Assembly: GCF_023544465.1 (NCBI RefSeq)
Contig: NZ_JALPVL010000002.1
Coordinates: forward strand, 682,001 to 746,000
From: Paractinoplanes maris
Lineage (GTDB): Bacteria; Actinomycetota; Actinomycetes; Mycobacteriales; Micromonosporaceae
DNA length: 64,000 nucleotides
Reading direction: 5' to 3'
The notes under the pieces were generated by a model, which did no database searches, was not told the origin of the DNA, and saw nothing but the letters and a program-made list of their open reading frames with translations. The position numbers were made by a program, and so were the translations under genes. The stretch's first letter is position 1, and the number at the start of each line of letters is the position of its first letter. Below, piece by piece: positions 6,409-19,923 of this stretch.

Positions 6409-6432
6409 TCACCGGCGGCGGAAAGGGAACGA

Positions 6433-6454
6433 CCCCCGTCGGGGGAGACGGGGG
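6433..6454 (+). terminator. Hairpin downstream of the STAS gene
   Basis: Perfect 8-bp stem (CCCCCGTC/GACGGGGG) with a 6-nt loop, 25 nt after the STAS stop codon. No T-tract, as usual for high-GC actinobacteria. Confidence 0.6.
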
Positions 6455-6463
6455 CCGTCCGAG

Positions 6464-6493
6464 GATTCGGCTCCGGGGGGGTCGAGCCGAATC
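6464..6493 (+). terminator. Second hairpin downstream of the STAS gene
   Basis: Perfect 10-bp stem GATTCGGCTC/GAGCCGAATC around a 10-nt G-rich loop. It follows the first hairpin directly and probably reinforces termination. Confidence 0.55.
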
Positions 6494-6727
6494 GACTCGG
6501 TGATCGCGGGGGGCGCAATCACCGAGGGTTCTTCATCACCGAGGGTTCCGGAAAAGTGGTGGAGCGCGACGGGTCACAACATGAATCCCGATCGCAACAG
6601 CACAAGCATGCCTCACTTAGGCAGCACAGTCGAGTACCGATTGTGGCTCGGTGCGATACTGCTACCTGTCTGACCGATTTCACTGGCTGTCACGCTGCGT
6701 CGATCCGGCGCGCCGGGGACGACAGCG

Positions 6728-13218: not shown

Positions 13219-13581
13219 TCAGATGCGCTGCTCGTTGAGGTCGGAGATCTCGTGCAGGGGCGCCCAGCCCTGATAGACGCCGAAGTCGAACTCCTCGAGG
13301 CCCAACTGGCGAGCGACCGGGGCACGGCCACCCGCATACTCGACCCGCAGCCACGAATTCGCCTCGGCCAGCACGATGAACGGGGCACCACGCCACGTGC
13401 ACGTGGTCCGCACATAGATCAGCTCGTCGTATTCCGGAGGGGTCAGCACCCGGACGTAGCGGCCGGGACGCACCTCGTCGAAGCCGTCGGCCGGATCCGT
13501 CCGGTAGATGCGCACGTTGTCACCGTCGGGCGCGGCGTCGTACTCGTGCCCCTGCCAAGCCACCACGTAGCCGTCGCGCAT
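13219..13581 (-). CDS. Small hypothetical protein overlapping the SseB protein gene
   Basis: 120 residues from the ATG at 13581 (GTG at 13584 is an alternative); the start overlaps the stop of the large SseB gene, so the two are translated together. The product is soluble, rich in Tyr, Asp and Glu, with alternating strands (YVVAWQGHEYDA, YVRVLTPPEYDELIYVRTT) and no signal or membrane segment. No family recognised. Tight coupling to a large multi-domain T7SS-linked protein suggests a dedicated partner, possibly a chaperone or immunity protein; this is inference. Confidence 0.7.
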   Translation of the reverse strand: MRDGYVVAWQGHEYDAAPDGDNVRIYRTDPADGFDEVRPGRYVRVLTPPEYDELIYVRTTCTWRGAPFIVLAEANSWLRVEYAGGRAPVARQLGLEEFDFGVYQGWAPLHEISDLNEQRI

Positions 13582-16500
13582 CACTGCTCACCCACCCGGC
13601 GCCACACAGGACCGTCGTTGTCGAAGATGGCCACCATGCGCTCGGTGCCGTCGATGTCGATGCGCCACAGCTGGGCACCATGCGGCAGCCGCACACTGTC
13701 CACCTTGAACTCGGCGACGACGTCGCGACCCTCACCGGGGGCGAAACCGTTGCCCCGGAAAGGCGGACGCTCGATGACCCAGCCGTCCATGGCCTTCAGA
13801 GCCTGCTCGTTCTGCCCGCCGTAGGGGATGCGGTAGAGGCTCGGACGATACGCCGGCCAGCGCAGGACGTACGCCTCCTTGACGTCCGCCTGATGCGGCG
13901 AGCCGTCGTAGCTCAGTCCGAGCGCGCCGAAGAGCTCGGCCGGCGTCCGCAGGTGCTCCACCTCGGTCGCGCGGTGCACGAAGCCGGCCACCCGGTCGTA
14001 CCCACGCTCCAGGTAGTAGTCGACCTGGTCGGGCGGGATCGTCTTCTGCATGACGGTGGCGTGCTGGGCGTCGTCGTTCGCGGGCTCGGGCGGCGGCACC
14101 GGCGCGGCATCCTCGACCGGGCTGTCCGGGTCGAGGCCCAGACCGGACTCCGCGGCCCAGCTGGCCAGCGCGATGACCTGAGGACCGGGGTACTTGGCAC
14201 CGATCGGGCCGGTCGGGTTCACCGCGAACGACCAGGCCGGGTCGGGCCAGTTGCGGATCAGCTCGTAGAACCGGACACCCACCGTGCGGGTGGGCTCCGC
14301 GAAGTGCTCGGCCAGCCGGTCTTTGCTGGTGAAGACGATCAGGAAGGTCTCGCCGTCGACCTGCTCAGTGCGGAACGCGAAGCCGGACTCGCCGGGTGAG
14401 CTGCCCGGGCGCGAGTGGTTGGCCACCGGGACCAGCACGGTCGCGAGCAGCAGAGTGGAGAGGAACGCGTCGGTGCTGTGGCCGCCGGCGGCGTCGAAGA
14501 GATCACGCTCGACGTCGTTGGCCGGCACGAACGCCTCGGCGACGGGGGCCGGCGGGGCTGCCCTCGGCGGCTCGGCCGTCTCGAACGCGGGCTGAGCGCC
14601 GAGGCGGGCCGGGCGGTCGCTGCCGGGAGTTCCCGGGATGACCGGCGGGGCGACCGACGGCGACGGGGCCTCGGACTTGGTCTGGAACGCCGGGAACGAC
14701 GTGAGACCGGGACGCTCGGACGGCGAGGTCGCCTGACGGCGCGGCAGCGGAGTGCCGAAACCGGGGCTGGGCTGGGCCTGCATGGGGGGCGCCGGCGACG
14801 GGGCGGCGGACGGTGCCGCAGCCGCTGCGGGTGGGGCCGGGGGCGCTGAGATCGGCGCCATCGCGGCCGGGCGCTGGGCCGCGGCCGCCTGCGGAGAGGC
14901 CGGACCCTGCGGGAAGCCGGCGTCGGACTGCTGGCGACGAGGCAGGGCGCCGAGGGCTCCGGACGGCGCGCCGGTCGCGCCCGACCAGGCCGGGTCGAAC
15001 GGAGTCTCGTCCGGGTTGTGCGGCGTGATGTGCTCGGGCACCGGCGGGGTCTGGGCCATCGGGGTGCGGACCGGCAGGGGGGCGCCGAGATCCTGCAGGG
15101 GGCCGCGCGGATCGTCGCCGCGACCCGTCGGCGCCGGGACCGGCGGGGCCGACACGGGTGGCGCGAAAACGGGTGGCACAGGTGGTGACTGGTAGGCCGA
15201 GGGGACCGCGGTGGGCGCGGCCGGCGACGGCGACGCCGGGCTCGCGCCCGGGCTGCGAACTGGCAGGCCGTTGGGTAGGACGGTTCCCGGCGTACGGATC
15301 GGCAGGCCGGCGGGACCGGTCGGCTCCGGCCTCGAACCGACTGCCTCGCGAGCAGCCGGCTGACCGAAGCCATCCGGACGCGCCGGGGCGTTCCCCGCCG
15401 GACTGGTGGGCTGACCGTAAGCGGGCGGAGCGCTCGCGGGTCGCCCGTACGTGGGCGGTGCGGCGGCCGGTTGACCGTAAGCCGGCGGGACAGCCGCAGG
15501 CTGACCGTAAGCCGGCGGGACGGCCGCGGGCTGACCGTAAGCCGGCGGGACGGCCGCGGGCTGACCGTAAGCCGGCGGGACGGCCGCGGGCTGACCGTAG
15601 GCGGGAGGGGCACTCGCAGGACGGCCGAATGTCTCCGGCGGGCCGCTCGTGGGCCGGTTCGTGGCCGGCGGCGCACTCGCGGGCGGCGCACTGGCCGGCG
15701 CGGTGGCCCCGGGCCGGCCGTAGGCGGATGGCGTGCGGGTCGGCAGACTGTCCGCGGCCGAAGGCGTACGGGAGGGCAGGCCGTTCGTGGCCGGCGGGGT
15801 GCGCAGCGGCAGGCTGCCGGCGATCGACGGCGTGCGGGGCGGCTGACCATCGGCGGGCGCACGAGTGGGCAAGCTGTCGTCGGCGGACGGCGTCCGGTTC
15901 GGCAGGCCCTCGCCGGCCGCCGGTGTCCGCGCGGGCAGGGTGTCGGCCGGTGGCTGACCGGGCTGCTGAGCGTAGGCGCCGCCATATGTATTGGCGGCGG
16001 CCTGACCGTACGCGGGCGGTGCACCCGCGGTCTGCGGGTTGTAAGCGGCCGGAGCCTGCGCGTTATAAGCGGCTGGGGCCTGCTGGCCGTACGCAGCCGG
16101 CGCGCCAGACGTCTGCTGGCCATACGCGGCCGGCGCGCCCGACGTCTGCTGGCCATACGCGGCGGGCGTGGCGGCCGGGGTCTGGGACTGCTGGCCGTAC
16201 GTGCCCGAGGGGTAGTGCGGGTAGGAGCCGGTCGCCGCCGTGAGCGGGGTGCCCTCGTGAGTGGGGCCGCCGGGACGGCCGGCCTCCTCCTCCTGGCGAG
16301 CGGTGGCGGCGTTGGCCGCCACGGCCGCGGAGTGCAGATCCTGGATCTTGCCGGCACCGGCCTTGGAGTCGGCGCGCCCCGGACCGCGGGTCGGCAGTCT
16401 CAGGTCGCCGCGGGACAGCTGGGCCACGAACCAGGCGGGCAGATAGCCCTCGATCGGCAGGCCGGGGTTGACCGCCAGCCACCACTCGAGGTTGGGCCAG

Positions 16501-16787
16501 GTGTTGGCCAGCTCCGCATACGGCACCCGCCGGGCCGAACCGGTGTAATCCGCCAGGCACGACTGCAGGGCCGCCGTCGACGTGAAGGCCAGCACATGGG
16601 TCCGGCCGCCGGTGCTCCAGGTGCCCCAGCCGAGCGGGGCCAGGCCCGCCAGCGCATCGGCGGAGACCGGTAGGAGCAGGTCAACGCCGGAGAGAATGCG
16701 GAAATAGGATTCCTGGTCGTCGGTGCGCAACGCATCGCGCATCGCCACCTCGGCGTCCGTAGCCGGTTCCCACTCGGACACGTCCAC
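13581..16787 (-). CDS. Giant SseB-domain, proline-rich repeat protein linked to T7SS genes
   Basis: 1068 residues from GTG 16787 (GTG 16781 has better ribosome-site spacing). An N-terminal SseB domain (~1-130) is followed by ~600 residues of Pro/Ala-rich sequence, with ten-residue PPAYGQPAAV repeats (~390-450) and about ten LPxRTP-like motifs (~280-360 and later). A second SseB domain (~755-890, ending near WSFAVNPTGPIGAKYPG) and a unique C-terminal domain (~915-1068) complete it. SseB domains occur in ESX-linked enhancer/adaptor proteins. No signal peptide. Downstream of two WXG100 genes in the same direction. Function unknown. Confidence 0.75.
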   Translation of the reverse strand: MDVSEWEPATDAEVAMRDALRTDDQESYFRILSGVDLLLPVSADALAGLAPLGWGTWSTGGRTHVLAFTSTAALQSCLADYTGSARRVPYAELANTWPNLEWWLAVNPGLPIEGYLPAWFVAQLSRGDLRLPTRGPGRADSKAGAGKIQDLHSAAVAANAATARQEEEAGRPGGPTHEGTPLTAATGSYPHYPSGTYGQQSQTPAATPAAYGQQTSGAPAAYGQQTSGAPAAYGQQAPAAYNAQAPAAYNPQTAGAPPAYGQAAANTYGGAYAQQPGQPPADTLPARTPAAGEGLPNRTPSADDSLPTRAPADGQPPRTPSIAGSLPLRTPPATNGLPSRTPSAADSLPTRTPSAYGRPGATAPASAPPASAPPATNRPTSGPPETFGRPASAPPAYGQPAAVPPAYGQPAAVPPAYGQPAAVPPAYGQPAAVPPAYGQPAAAPPTYGRPASAPPAYGQPTSPAGNAPARPDGFGQPAAREAVGSRPEPTGPAGLPIRTPGTVLPNGLPVRSPGASPASPSPAAPTAVPSAYQSPPVPPVFAPPVSAPPVPAPTGRGDDPRGPLQDLGAPLPVRTPMAQTPPVPEHITPHNPDETPFDPAWSGATGAPSGALGALPRRQQSDAGFPQGPASPQAAAAQRPAAMAPISAPPAPPAAAAAPSAAPSPAPPMQAQPSPGFGTPLPRRQATSPSERPGLTSFPAFQTKSEAPSPSVAPPVIPGTPGSDRPARLGAQPAFETAEPPRAAPPAPVAEAFVPANDVERDLFDAAGGHSTDAFLSTLLLATVLVPVANHSRPGSSPGESGFAFRTEQVDGETFLIVFTSKDRLAEHFAEPTRTVGVRFYELIRNWPDPAWSFAVNPTGPIGAKYPGPQVIALASWAAESGLGLDPDSPVEDAAPVPPPEPANDDAQHATVMQKTIPPDQVDYYLERGYDRVAGFVHRATEVEHLRTPAELFGALGLSYDGSPHQADVKEAYVLRWPAYRPSLYRIPYGGQNEQALKAMDGWVIERPPFRGNGFAPGEGRDVVAEFKVDSVRLPHGAQLWRIDIDGTERMVAIFDNDGPVWRRVGEQ
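15471..15620 (-). repeat. Tandem 30-bp coding repeat in the SseB protein gene
   Basis: Three identical 30-bp units (15501-15530, 15531-15560, 15561-15590), one near-identical (15471-15500) and one degenerate (15591-15620). Each encodes PPAYGQPAAV. Identity at DNA level, including third codon positions, indicates recent duplication and likely copy-number variation between strains. Confidence 0.9.
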
Positions 16788-17119
16788 CTCTCCCCACCGC
16801 GCGACGAGGCCATCTCAACGCGTACAACCTACAAGGTCAGCCCGCGATCACAATGGGCGGCGGTAGGCAGACGTGTAAGTCGTAGGCGATCGAGCCCTCG
16901 TACGCGCCCGGAAGCTCTCCGGAGCGCCTCATAAATCGCCTCAAGCGATCAAACAACAACCGATCGTAGCGATATCGGCCAGGTAGACCAGTACGCGTTC
17001 GAGCGACAACAAGCTTCGCAACAACGGACCAAACGGGTGAACGGCTCGAAGTGCAACAACGAAACGGCCGGTCAGTCCGGGGACTGGTCCGGCCGTTCAC
17101 GGTGCGGCGGGGCCGCGCG
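16788..17119. other. Intergenic region between the SseB and WXG100 genes
   Basis: 332 nt, noticeably less GC-rich than its neighbours. It holds the strong terminator at 17063-17097 just after the WXG100 stop codon and, by position, the promoter of the SseB gene (16788-~16950). No gene is convincing on either strand. Confidence 0.6.
17063..17097 (-). terminator. Terminator downstream of the WXG100 gene pair
   Basis: AACGGCCGG (17063-17071) pairs with CCGGCCGTT (17089-17097), and inside it CAGTCC pairs with GGACTG, giving an almost continuous 15-bp hairpin 23 nt after the leftward stop codon. Confidence 0.85.
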
Positions 17120-17416
17120 TCACTGGAAGCGCGCGGTCGCCTGCTTCTCGGTGCTGACGTAGTCGTCGACCGACTGGTCGACCGCACCCTTGATGTTCTG
17201 CAGGATGCTGGTCAGATCGCGCGATGCCGCGCGCCAGGTCGCCTGGCGCTGCTGATAAGCCTGCTGCGCCTCACCGTCCCAGGTGTCGACCAGCGGGGCG
17301 GCGTCACGCTCGAGCTGGTCGAGCTGTGACTGCAGCGTGTTGATCGCCTTCTGGATGTCGGCCCCCGCCTGCTGCAGGGCGCCGAAATTGACGAGCAGTA
17401 CTCCATCACTAGGCAT
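17120..17416 (-). CDS. WXG100 family protein (ESAT-6-like)
   Basis: 98 residues, the standard WXG100 length, predicted as two amphipathic helices joined by a turn with the WxG motif as WDG (residues 46-48). Such proteins form helical-hairpin dimers exported by type VII secretion. The C-terminus (VDDYVSTEKQATARF) carries a YxxxE-like signal. GGGGGG before the ATG serves as ribosome site. It follows a second WXG100 gene by 16 nt, probably its heterodimer partner. Confidence 0.9.
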   Translation of the reverse strand: MPSDGVLLVNFGALQQAGADIQKAINTLQSQLDQLERDAAPLVDTWDGEAQQAYQQRQATWRAASRDLTSILQNIKGAVDQSVDDYVSTEKQATARFQ

Positions 17417-17432
17417 GTCTTGTCCCCCCGAG

Positions 17433-17795
17433 TCAGAGCGGCAGTGAGAAGGTGCCGCCGGTGCCGGACACCCGGCTGGCCGCCTCGGTGTCGGTCGCGT
17501 CGTAGCTGGTGCCGGACTGCTTGATCGAGTCGGCGGTCTGGGCGAGAGCCGAGTTGAGGCTCTTCAGGTCCTGCGCATACTGGACCTTGACCTGCTCGAA
17601 CGCCGCGGCGCCGAGCCCTTTCCACGTGCCGCTCAGCGCGGACAGCTCGTTCATGAGCGTGCTCAGCATCGTCTGCAGCTGGTCGTTGACCTGATCGAAC
17701 TTGACGGCGGTCCCCGCCATCACCTGGGATTCAGCTTGCGTTCCGGCCACCCGGATGTCACCCCGCTCCCTCGCTTGGGTCGCCGACGATGTCAT
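17433..17795 (-). CDS. WXG100 family protein (larger partner)
   Basis: 120 residues from the ATG at 17795; an upstream in-frame ATG at 17822 is less likely. After a ~25-residue leader come two helices joined by WKG, with the C-terminal helix including YAQDLKSLNSALAQT and a flexible Gly/Ser tail. Probably a CFP-10-like partner of the 98-residue protein downstream. The first gene of this leftward operon; its promoter lies in the divergent region shared with eccE. Confidence 0.85.
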   Translation of the reverse strand: MTSSATQARERGDIRVAGTQAESQVMAGTAVKFDQVNDQLQTMLSTLMNELSALSGTWKGLGAAAFEQVKVQYAQDLKSLNSALAQTADSIKQSGTSYDATDTEAASRVSGTGGTFSLPL

Positions 17796-18069
17796 GATCC
17801 GTTGTGGACGGACGGTGATCAACCGCCCTCGACATATCGACGTTGGCCACCAGGCTAACCCCTGTCCACAAGCCGTAGGGGGCGTGCCGTGAGCGACCGA
17901 TTACTCTTCCATGACGTTGCCGACCGTAGCGAAAGACGTCAAGCGGCGGTAGCTCGAAAATCGGAGGCTGTGGATAACTCCGGGTTGTCCACAGGGCATC
18001 CCGCGGCGTGACCGGAGCCCATACGATGGGCCCGCACAAGGACAGACGCGTTCTGAAGGGCGGTGTGTC
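17796..18069. promoter_or_regulatory. Divergent T7SS promoter region with four DnaA-box-like sites
   Basis: 274 nt between the WXG100 pair and eccE. Sites fitting YYRTCCACA are at 17803-17811 (complement), 17862-17870 (CTGTCCACA), 17969-17977 (complement, TTATCCACA) and 17985-17993 (TTGTCCACA). The last two are only 7 nt apart and face each other. Confidence 0.55.
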
Positions 18070-19923
18070 GTGACGGTTGACGTGGCTCGTGACCGGGATT
18101 ACCGCGACCTGTCCGGTCCGGCCAAGCCGTCACCCAAGGTCAGCACCGGCCCGCTCCGACGTGGACGACTGTTCGGCCTGCGCGCCTCTCAGCTGGTCGC
18201 CACCCAGGTCGCCGCGGTGGCGGTGGCGCTGGGCGCGATCAACGGTCCGATCGGTCTCGTCGCCGGCGGTGCGCTCGCCCTGGCGATCCTGGCCCTCACC
18301 TGGCTGCGACTGCGGGGCCGCTGGGCGTTCGAGTGGCTGGGGGTCGGCCTGCGATTCGGCGGCCGGCGCCATGCCGCTCCGGTCGGCGGCGACCCGACGG
18401 CGCTGCTGCGGTTCCTGGCCCCCGGCGCGCGCGTCGAGCAGACCGACCTGGCCGGCGATCCGGCCGCGGTCGTCGTCGACGGTCACGGCCTCACCGCGGT
18501 GCTCGAGCTGGGTGACCCGGCGGGCCTGCTGGCCGAGGACACCCCGGCCCTTCCCGCGCCGGCGAGCCTGCTGCCGTCGGCCGAGGCCGAGGTGCCCCCG
18601 GTGCTGATCCAGTTGTTGCTGACCGGAGCGCCGGCTCCAGCGTTGCGGGCCGGGGCCGGCACCCCGGCCAACTCCTACCGTCAGCTCACCGAGGGCCGCC
18701 TGCTCGGGCACAGCCGCGCACTGCTCGCGGTGCGGGTGCTGCGGGCCGAGGGCTGGTCCGAGCAGGAGCTGCAGCGCGCGCTGTCCGGCCTGGTGCGAAA
18801 GCTGGTGCGCCGGCTGTCCGCCGTGCCGGCCCGGCCGCTGGGCGAGGCGGCTGCGCTGCGGGTCATCGCCGAGCTGGCGCACGACGACGGCGTCGGCTCG
18901 GCCCAGGAGTCCTGGCCCGGGGTCCGGGTCGGGGGCTTGGCGCAGACCACGTTCCGGCTGCGGCGCCCGCCCGACCTACAGGTCGAGACGTCCCGGCGAC
19001 TGGTGTCCCGCATGCTGACGCTCCCGGCCGCCGCGACAACGGTGTCGCTGACCGCGGGCCCGCAGGCGGCGCACGGGCCCACGCCGATGGATGTCACCGT
19101 CCGCCTGGCCGCGCCCGACCCTGGCACCCTGGGCGTCGCCTCGCAGGCGCTACGAAAGCTGCTGGCCGGCGAGCACGCCGGGGCCCAACGTCTCGACGGC
19201 GAGCATGTCCAGGGGCTGTTCGCGACGCTTCCGCTGGGTGGACGGCCTTCGGCCATCCCTGGGCTGGCTCTCGACGGCGTTCAACCGGCCGAGCAGTTGG
19301 AGGGCTTGCACCTTCAGGTCGGCACGTCCGGCCTGATGCTGGGACGCAACCGCCACGGCAGCCCCGTGGTGACCCGGTTGTTCCGGCCGGAGCAGACCCG
19401 GGCTCTCGTGGTGGGCGGCGTCCGCTGCGCGCAGCTCGTCGCGTTGCGGGCCATGGCCCTAGGGGCGCGAGTGGTCGTGCAGACGGCGCGGCCCCGGGCG
19501 TGGGAGCCGTTCGTCCGCGGAGCGGCCGTTCCCGGCGAGTCGATCGCCGTGGTGCCGCCGGGCCGGCCCATCGAGATAGCCCCCGGCTCGGCCCTGCACC
19601 CCCTGTTGATCGTGGTCGACATCGGCCCGGTGGGTGCCGACAACCGTCCCGGAGACGGCTGGCAGGCGACGCTGGTGGTTCGCGACGAGTTCGCCGCGGT
19701 CGACGTCGACGTGGCATCCCGCGCCGATCTGCTCATCCTCCAGCCCCTGCGCCCCGAGGAGGCCACCCTCATCGGCGGCGCTCTCGGCCTGGGTGAGGTG
19801 GCTCAGTGGATGACCAAAATCCGCCCCGACATGGTGGGAGTGGTCAACCGTCGCGCGGTCCGCTGGGCGGCCCTGGCGCACACCCCGATCGAGACTCAGC
19901 TGATCGGCCCACCCGGCCGCTGA
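18070..19923 (+). CDS. eccE: Type VII secretion protein EccE
   Basis: 617 residues from a GTG with ribosome site AAGGGCGG. Two adjacent membrane helices near the N-terminus (~39-77, VATQVAAVAVALGAINGPIG then LVAGGALALAILALTW) followed by a large cytosolic domain match EccE, the peripheral subunit of the ESX inner-membrane complex. The RxLLGHSRA and LMLGRNRHGSPV segments fit the family. No eccB, eccC, eccD or mycP is in the window, so this is a separated EccE, divergent from two WXG100 genes. Confidence 0.88.
   Translation: MTVDVARDRDYRDLSGPAKPSPKVSTGPLRRGRLFGLRASQLVATQVAAVAVALGAINGPIGLVAGGALALAILALTWLRLRGRWAFEWLGVGLRFGGRRHAAPVGGDPTALLRFLAPGARVEQTDLAGDPAAVVVDGHGLTAVLELGDPAGLLAEDTPALPAPASLLPSAEAEVPPVLIQLLLTGAPAPALRAGAGTPANSYRQLTEGRLLGHSRALLAVRVLRAEGWSEQELQRALSGLVRKLVRRLSAVPARPLGEAAALRVIAELAHDDGVGSAQESWPGVRVGGLAQTTFRLRRPPDLQVETSRRLVSRMLTLPAAATTVSLTAGPQAAHGPTPMDVTVRLAAPDPGTLGVASQALRKLLAGEHAGAQRLDGEHVQGLFATLPLGGRPSAIPGLALDGVQPAEQLEGLHLQVGTSGLMLGRNRHGSPVVTRLFRPEQTRALVVGGVRCAQLVALRAMALGARVVVQTARPRAWEPFVRGAAVPGESIAVVPPGRPIEIAPGSALHPLLIVVDIGPVGADNRPGDGWQATLVVRDEFAAVDVDVASRADLLILQPLRPEEATLIGGALGLGEVAQWMTKIRPDMVGVVNRRAVRWAALAHTPIETQLIGPPGR

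Follow-up and report, generated by a model that had tools for sequence, protein, structure and literature searches.

The double-SseB giant protein beside eccE in Paractinoplanes maris: a possible ESX accessory chaperone with a toxin-like C-terminal domain

Described systems and the locus

EspK, the chaperone of EspB in the mycobacterial secretion system ESX-1, consists of two domains on a low-complexity linker that has been described as a rope; its C-terminal domain binds the substrate, and its N-terminal domain has been proposed to contact the ESX ATPase (passages on EspK in PMC9811218). A protein of similar layout is encoded in a 64,000-nucleotide stretch of Paractinoplanes maris DNA (Micromonosporaceae; contig NZ_JALPVL010000002.1, positions 682,001 to 746,000; hereafter the window): a giant with two SseB domains, which are separated by a long linker and followed by a C-terminal domain (CTD), next to the gene of a small partner protein, a pair of WXG100 genes and the ESX gene eccE. 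We propose, with about even confidence, that this giant is a cytosolic accessory chaperone or adaptor of ESX, i.e., of a type VII secretion system (T7SS; here T7SSa), which carries a domesticated toxin-class CTD of the ADP-ribosyltransferase (ART)/NADase fold together with a former immunity-type partner. By analogy, it might work like EspK, which implies no kinship to EspK: the likeness, compared from the text of PMC9811218, is that of N- and C-terminal domains on a long low-complexity linker, whereas the passages on EspK describe neither an ART-fold domain nor an SH3-like partner. For the C-terminal domain of EspK, the authors' own fold searches gave mycobacterial proteins only, and “SseB” is absent from the main text (PMC9811218).

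The highest-ranked folds for the CTD belong to Tne2-Tni2, SPN-IFS, TreX-TriX and RhsP2-RhsI2, which share with it the layout of a toxin and a small partner. The present pair differs from them in its structural scores (Z of at most 6.8), its near-universal presence in the family, its fusion to a chaperone-type domain and a partner modelled as SH3-like barrels. CpnT/TNT is reportedly an ESX-linked case, in which an NADase-type tail comes with a partner gene for an immunity factor. Unlike CpnT/TNT, however, the CTD and its partner have no Pfam family match at E ≤ 1, and TNT is not among the structural matches of the CTD, which excludes nothing. Ntox40/TNT and Imm63 are mentioned in passages of PMC9503650, which also place SseB in contexts of ADP-ribose enzymes. 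The giant thereby resembles the SseB/TY-Chap chaperones of NAD-ADP-ribose linked systems, and one of its relatives carries a fused TY-Chap3 domain (locus L150; loci, genomes and contigs are cited by L, G and C numbers). It differs in that these passages concern systems centred on ADP-ribosylglycohydrolases; type VII wording is found in that paper only in hyphenated form, for one phage toxin. “SseB” is absent from the main text of the T7SS variant survey PMC11217815 and from the available passages of PMC3482391. Literature searches on SseB, Actinoplanes and type VII secretion, with limited terms and top-ranked results, found no description of the CTD-partner pair.

The C-terminal domain and its partner

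Neither the CTD nor the partner matches a named family in Pfam (E ≤ 1) or NCBIfam, and searches against PDB sequences yielded no match for the CTD profile (best E 1) or the partner (best E 0.52). Judged by its profile matches, the CTD is a member of a family that has no name in these libraries, and is not unique to the giant. The sequence-only reading, which had called this domain unique, has to be corrected here, as matches recur across genomes.

Structure prediction of the CTD and of the partner, each alone, had been suggested as a check and has now been carried out; the two were modelled apart because a mixed fused alignment misplaced part of the partner. The CTD model has a mean predicted local distance difference test score (pLDDT) of 83 (loop region 62-65) and a predicted template modelling score (pTM) of 0.81. 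VIA ranks Tne2 first (Z 6.8, root-mean-square deviation (rmsd) 3.2, 103 aligned) and SPN second (6.1, 3.7, 123), followed by Rhs and other ART toxins, where Z values below 8 may reflect merely a common arrangement. We take the first 20 rows (Z 6.8 to 3.1) to be ART-superfamily or NADase toxin entries, the matched chain being unnamed in complexes. It is the agreement of these rows, not Z, on which the ART/NADase reading of the CTD is based, and the predicted fold is closest to ADP-ribosyltransferase/NADase toxins at a sub-decisive level. The partner model (pLDDT 95, pTM 0.77) resembles SH3-like barrels in its second half (VIA Z to 5.5), while rows covering both halves have rmsd ≥ 11 Å, so that the match is good for the second half only. 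As modelled, the partner reads as two SH3-like barrels, the first being read from a repeated strand pattern. Since Foldseek alone gave no match at E ≤ 0.001 for the CTD and nothing significant for the partner, both fold readings rest on VIA.

Conservation bears on the question whether the CTD is an active enzyme. Eight columns are invariant over 39 CTD sequences, which range down to a metagenome-assembled genome (MAG) of Acetatifactor. In a residue table of 23 chosen loci, all five effector-type CTDs carry a glutamate ahead of a late strand, as do 14 of 15 SseB-linked domains (L150 lacks it); the paralogues L032 and L036 keep it, three diverged, partner-fused copies (L106, L145, L147) lack it, and both stand-alone CTDs have it replaced. 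The P-x-x-G-x-G loop that precedes this glutamate is common to the window and to most SseB-linked and effector-type CTDs. With glutamate and loop both kept, the window CTD has the effector-type residue signature. Against a structural scaffold, in which the ART fold is catalytically dead and the tail merely binds the partner, speak the eight invariant columns and the late-strand glutamate. On the other hand, a common fold does not prove function, the invariance of first-strand residues among the 39 sequences does not extend to the 23-locus table, and we recognise in the CTD no first-strand motif of the R-S-E type. Altogether, a mere scaffold appears very improbable.

Distribution, architectures and selection

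The CTD profile matches in all 250 Micromonosporaceae genomes surveyed, which represent 44/44 genera, with E ≤ 6e-39 in 245 of them. The partner profile likewise matches in 250/250 (E ≤ 7e-30 in 248, weak in G205 and G220); in another genome set, the partner was found in 36/36 genomes of the genus, P. maris included, and in 3/24 genomes of other families. Across the class, sampled evenly, the CTD occurs in 20/296 genomes. Among the CTD-holding open reading frames (ORFs), lengths vary from 376 to 1631 residues in the matches listed, some of which are ended by contig edges.

Synteny provides the link between the giant and ESX. In 49 named loci (L055-L103), the same CTD is found in all 49, behind SseB in all but L101 (an odd extra copy), with the partner in 48 and eccE in 43; four of the six loci lacking eccE have little upstream sequence, and another, L100, has eccE in a wider stretch (L129), taken from a contig of equal length. 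Twelve further loci, one each from 12 other genera of the family, also have the same CTD throughout, behind SseB in 11 (exception L140), with an adjoining partner in 11, the WXG100 pair in 10 and eccE in nine. Searches by tblastn with the subtilase from P. maris contig C28 located a mycosin-like subtilase in nine of the 12; eight of these nine also have the WXG100 pair, and there the subtilase gene, on the opposite strand, separates the pair from the giant. This position near the pair agrees with the esxA-esxB-mycP cluster reported in Micromonospora lupini (passages of PMC4182475). Both exceptions to the SseB-CTD order concern Phytohabitans flavus (L140 6382-10626 (+)/L101): an ORF of 1415 residues combines PP-binding and hexapeptide domains with one SseB and two CTDs, which are alike in all motif columns; no partner adjoins it, and another CTD with partner lies elsewhere in that genome.

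Most often, the family has an SseB-CTD protein and encodes the partner separately. SseB, CTD and partner are joined in a single open frame in L034, L142 and L143, and in L150 two TY-Chap3 stretches and one SseB precede the CTD. SseB-CTD genes also stand beside eccE in L033, L034, L035 and L105, the last three from other families; L033 and L035 also have an eccC-like gene nearby, and L034 and L035 encode an EccA-like protein (beta-helix, AAA and AAA lid), of which L105 has a counterpart by similarity. The N-terminal half of these EccA-like AAA proteins (L034 7825-9510, L035 3472-5178) matches a right-handed beta-helix.

Other architectures recall toxins more directly. The CTD ends a T7SS_signal protein in L145 (E 3e-34) and a WXG100_2 protein in L147 (E 6e-9), as well as proteins with no Pfam domain over cut-off in L106, L146 and L107, the last being a repeat protein from a MAG labelled Acetatifactor that is cut by the contig end. 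In L106, L145 and L147, the next gene encodes a second, diverged CTD fused to the partner domain, so that the domain of the effector-like protein recurs in the immunity-like gene; only weak partner matches follow in L146 (E about 0.001) and L107 (next ORF, E 0.042 among 12,588 segments). With the CTD at the end of T7SS-signal or WXG100-like proteins and partner-bearing genes next to them in other lineages, an effector-immunity origin of the pair is plausible.

These loci argue for an alternative, in which the giant itself is an ESX-delivered effector: the giant or a cleaved tail would be exported, the CTD would poison competitors, and the 120-residue protein would provide immunity. The CTD model nearest to toxins with immunity partners, the gene order with its stop/start overlap, and the effector-type residue signature of the window CTD all fit this scenario. 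However, polymorphic toxins carry variable C-terminal domains behind a shared N-terminus, and no C-terminal swapping is seen in the 49 + 12 loci; the domain is near-universal in the family. Likewise, the giant has no secretion signal recognised in Pfam, CTD and partner form a single frame in three loci, and the pair is under purifying selection. Selection was measured as the ratio of nonsynonymous to synonymous substitution rates (dN/dS; Nei-Gojobori, own script; medians over 36 close pairs from nine loci). The N-terminal SseB evolves slowest among the eight stretches compared (0.016); the CTD (0.088) and the partner (0.083) are close to a neighbouring hydrolase (0.069), followed by eccE (0.147) and the second SseB (0.185), and the WXG100 pair (0.34 and 0.51) evolves much faster than the remaining locus. 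Purifying selection on CTD and partner akin to that on a metabolic gene is not expected of a polymorphic weapon, and the steadiness with which the family keeps the pair suggests an old toxin in routine work instead. Export of the giant as an effector is thus somewhat unlikely; it keeps this much credit because the residue signature is retained and other members of the fold class are toxins.

The sequence-only reading had left effector-immunity and secreted protein-chaperone modules side by side. The chaperone side is now favoured by the proposed role of SseB, TY-Chap3 in L150 and the EspK-like layout. For the effector-immunity half speak the toxin-like CTD model and the CTDs on the effector-like proteins of L145 and L147; for this genome, near-universality, purifying selection, the lack of a recognised T7SS signal and the CTD-partner fusions speak against it.

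The ESX setting and a proposed role

The gene layout read from the sequence alone (WXG100 pair, double-SseB giant of 1068 residues, overlapping gene of 120 residues, divergent eccE) is confirmed, with ORFs as described (Table 1). Matches to the WXG100 model are clear for both window genes (E 4e-16 and 5e-13). A WxG together with a C-terminal YxxxD/E is the motif of WXG100/ESX substrates, and it is present in 45/45 A-type and 40/40 B-type sequences, those of the window included. For WXG100 B, the GTG start at 17750 is more likely, as matches to orthologues set in only around residue 25. PF07179 matches two stretches of the giant (Pfam, E 1e-16), both of which pass the cut-off of 21 bits and are the sole SseB matches found genome-wide. 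At E ≤ 1, SseB is the only Pfam domain in the giant: no T7SS signal, WXG, LXG or PPE domain is recognised, and the EspG chaperone family PF14011 does not match. NCBIfam gives a single match, SAV915_dom, under cut-off (E 0.0047) and inside the second SseB region.

Table 1. Features of the locus, in window coordinates
Feature	Position	Strand	Basis
Partner gene, 120 aa; ATG overlaps the giant's TGA (TGATG)	13219-13581	-	ORF
Giant gene, 1068 aa, GTG start: SseB, Pro-rich repeat linker, SseB, CTD	13581-16787	-	ORF and Pfam
CTD, 163 residues (giant residues 906-1068)	13584-14072	-	ART/NADase-like model
Second SseB domain of the giant, PF07179, 45.6 bits	14193-14480	-	Genome profile search
Pro/Ala-rich low-complexity repeat linker of the giant	14523-16367	-	Sequence
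First (N-terminal) SseB domain of the giant, PF07179, 24.7 bits	16437-16724	-	Genome profile search
Hairpin between WXG100 pair and giant gene, possible transcript boundary	17050-17119	-	Folding energy
WXG100 protein A, 98 aa, YxxxE near C-terminus	17120-17416	-	WXG100 model
WXG100 protein B, about 105 aa from GTG 17750, YxxxD	17433-17750 (ORF to 17822)	-	WXG100 model
eccE, divergent	18070-19923	+	TIGR03923

The window eccE (contig C12; TIGR03923, E 5e-32, 111.1 bits, or 113.4 bits in the genome search, versus a cut-off of 108) is the sole EccE match of the 9.35 Mb genome, which holds one over-cut-off match each for EccC, EccD, EccB and EccE, as well as further weak FtsK-like matches under cut-off for EccC. 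The genes eccD, eccC and the subtilase lie together at C28:79-86 kb, and eccB lies about 210 kb further at C28:298 kb. From these copy numbers, we infer that eccE is part of a dispersed single ESX. Searches by tblastn with the organism's own EccC, EccD and MycP-like subtilase found none of them within the window, so the earlier statement that no other ESX core genes are nearby is right for these three. A search of the genome for EspG, run without a positive control, found none. Some ESX-4-type systems are described as lacking EspG (passages of PMC11217815), and the giant could fill this gap. Among Rfam families, only 6C RNA (RF01066) exceeds its gathering score in the window, with 58.6 bits at 6424-6496 (-).

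In the proposed role as an ESX accessory chaperone, the two SseB domains would bind peptides or substrates at either end of a long flexible tether. The N-terminal SseB, which is under extreme constraint, would dock on a component that does not vary, probably a part of the ESX machine, while the head formed by the C-terminal SseB, the CTD and the partner would hold or license a WXG100-type substrate. Within this head, the ART-fold CTD might serve as a switch, be it NAD-using, NAD-sensing or purely structural, in a putative complex with the SH3-like partner, which would descend from an immunity-type protein. Tree comparisons by the mirror-tree approach (partial correlations over 37 loci) give 0.50 for N-terminal SseB and CTD and 0.46 for second SseB and CTD.

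Several observations weigh against an ESX chaperone. Its main weakness is that EccE matches in 5/20 CTD-positive genomes of the class draw compared to 82/296 overall; this lack of enrichment counts against a general ESX link. The mirror-tree correlation of CTD and partner is modest (0.33, versus 0.75 for the WXG100 pair), and that of CTD and eccE is -0.03. There is no indication that the giant is co-transcribed with the WXG100 pair, given the opposite-strand subtilase gene between them in other genera and the intergenic hairpin in the window (-34.1 kcal/mol, z -2.65; 3/200 shuffles equally stable), which is not in the output of a terminator scan. Five of the 250 family genomes (G072, G100, G205, G213, G220) have a CTD match of paralogue strength (4e-9 to 7e-13), which may mean that the main copy is absent, has diverged or dropped out during assembly. 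For G072, a single-contig genome of 3.5 Mb in which the partner matches at E 1.5e-41 and the best CTD at E 7e-13 only, the CTD may have been lost or have diverged naturally. Moreover, the chaperone function of SseB, a domain proposed to be related to Tic22, is itself a published prediction (passages of PMC9503650, whose “SseB” we assume to be the PF07179 domain), and, with its effector-type signature retained, the window CTD could still be a live toxin.

The class-wide absence of CTD-EccE co-occurrence would suit a cytosolic NAD-dependent or NAD-binding regulator, which has its partner but no role in secretion and neighbours eccE by chance. Stand-alone CTD and partner genes (L148, L149) point in the same direction, as does a paralogue in P. 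maris itself (L032 4934-5974 (+), contig C1 near 760 kb), in which a diverged CTD is fused to the partner domain without SseB; ESX core queries found no match in these three stretches. A second CTD match of the L032 kind is present in most genomes of the genus, and the neighbours of L032 look, by eye, like ksgA and metG. The recurrent linkage to eccE, WXG100, mycosin-like or EccA-like genes, both within the family and at L033-L035 and L105, makes a chance neighbour distinctly unlikely, however. A bolder variant, which we rate as unlikely, would turn the domesticated toxin-immunity pair into a secretion switch: a live ART/NADase on SseB arms, checked by the former immunity protein, would modify or sense NAD at the ESX machinery or WXG100 substrates across Micromonosporaceae.

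If the giant does act as an accessory chaperone, a non-mycobacterial ESX system would turn out to possess a tethered chaperone of its own, with a toxin-type domain recruited to a housekeeping complex. Micromonosporaceae are a family known for antibiotics, and nearly all of its sampled genomes hold this unnamed domain pair. Actinoplanes and Micromonospora might offer a harmless soil model for ESX substrate choice and for the roles of ESX outside pathogens.

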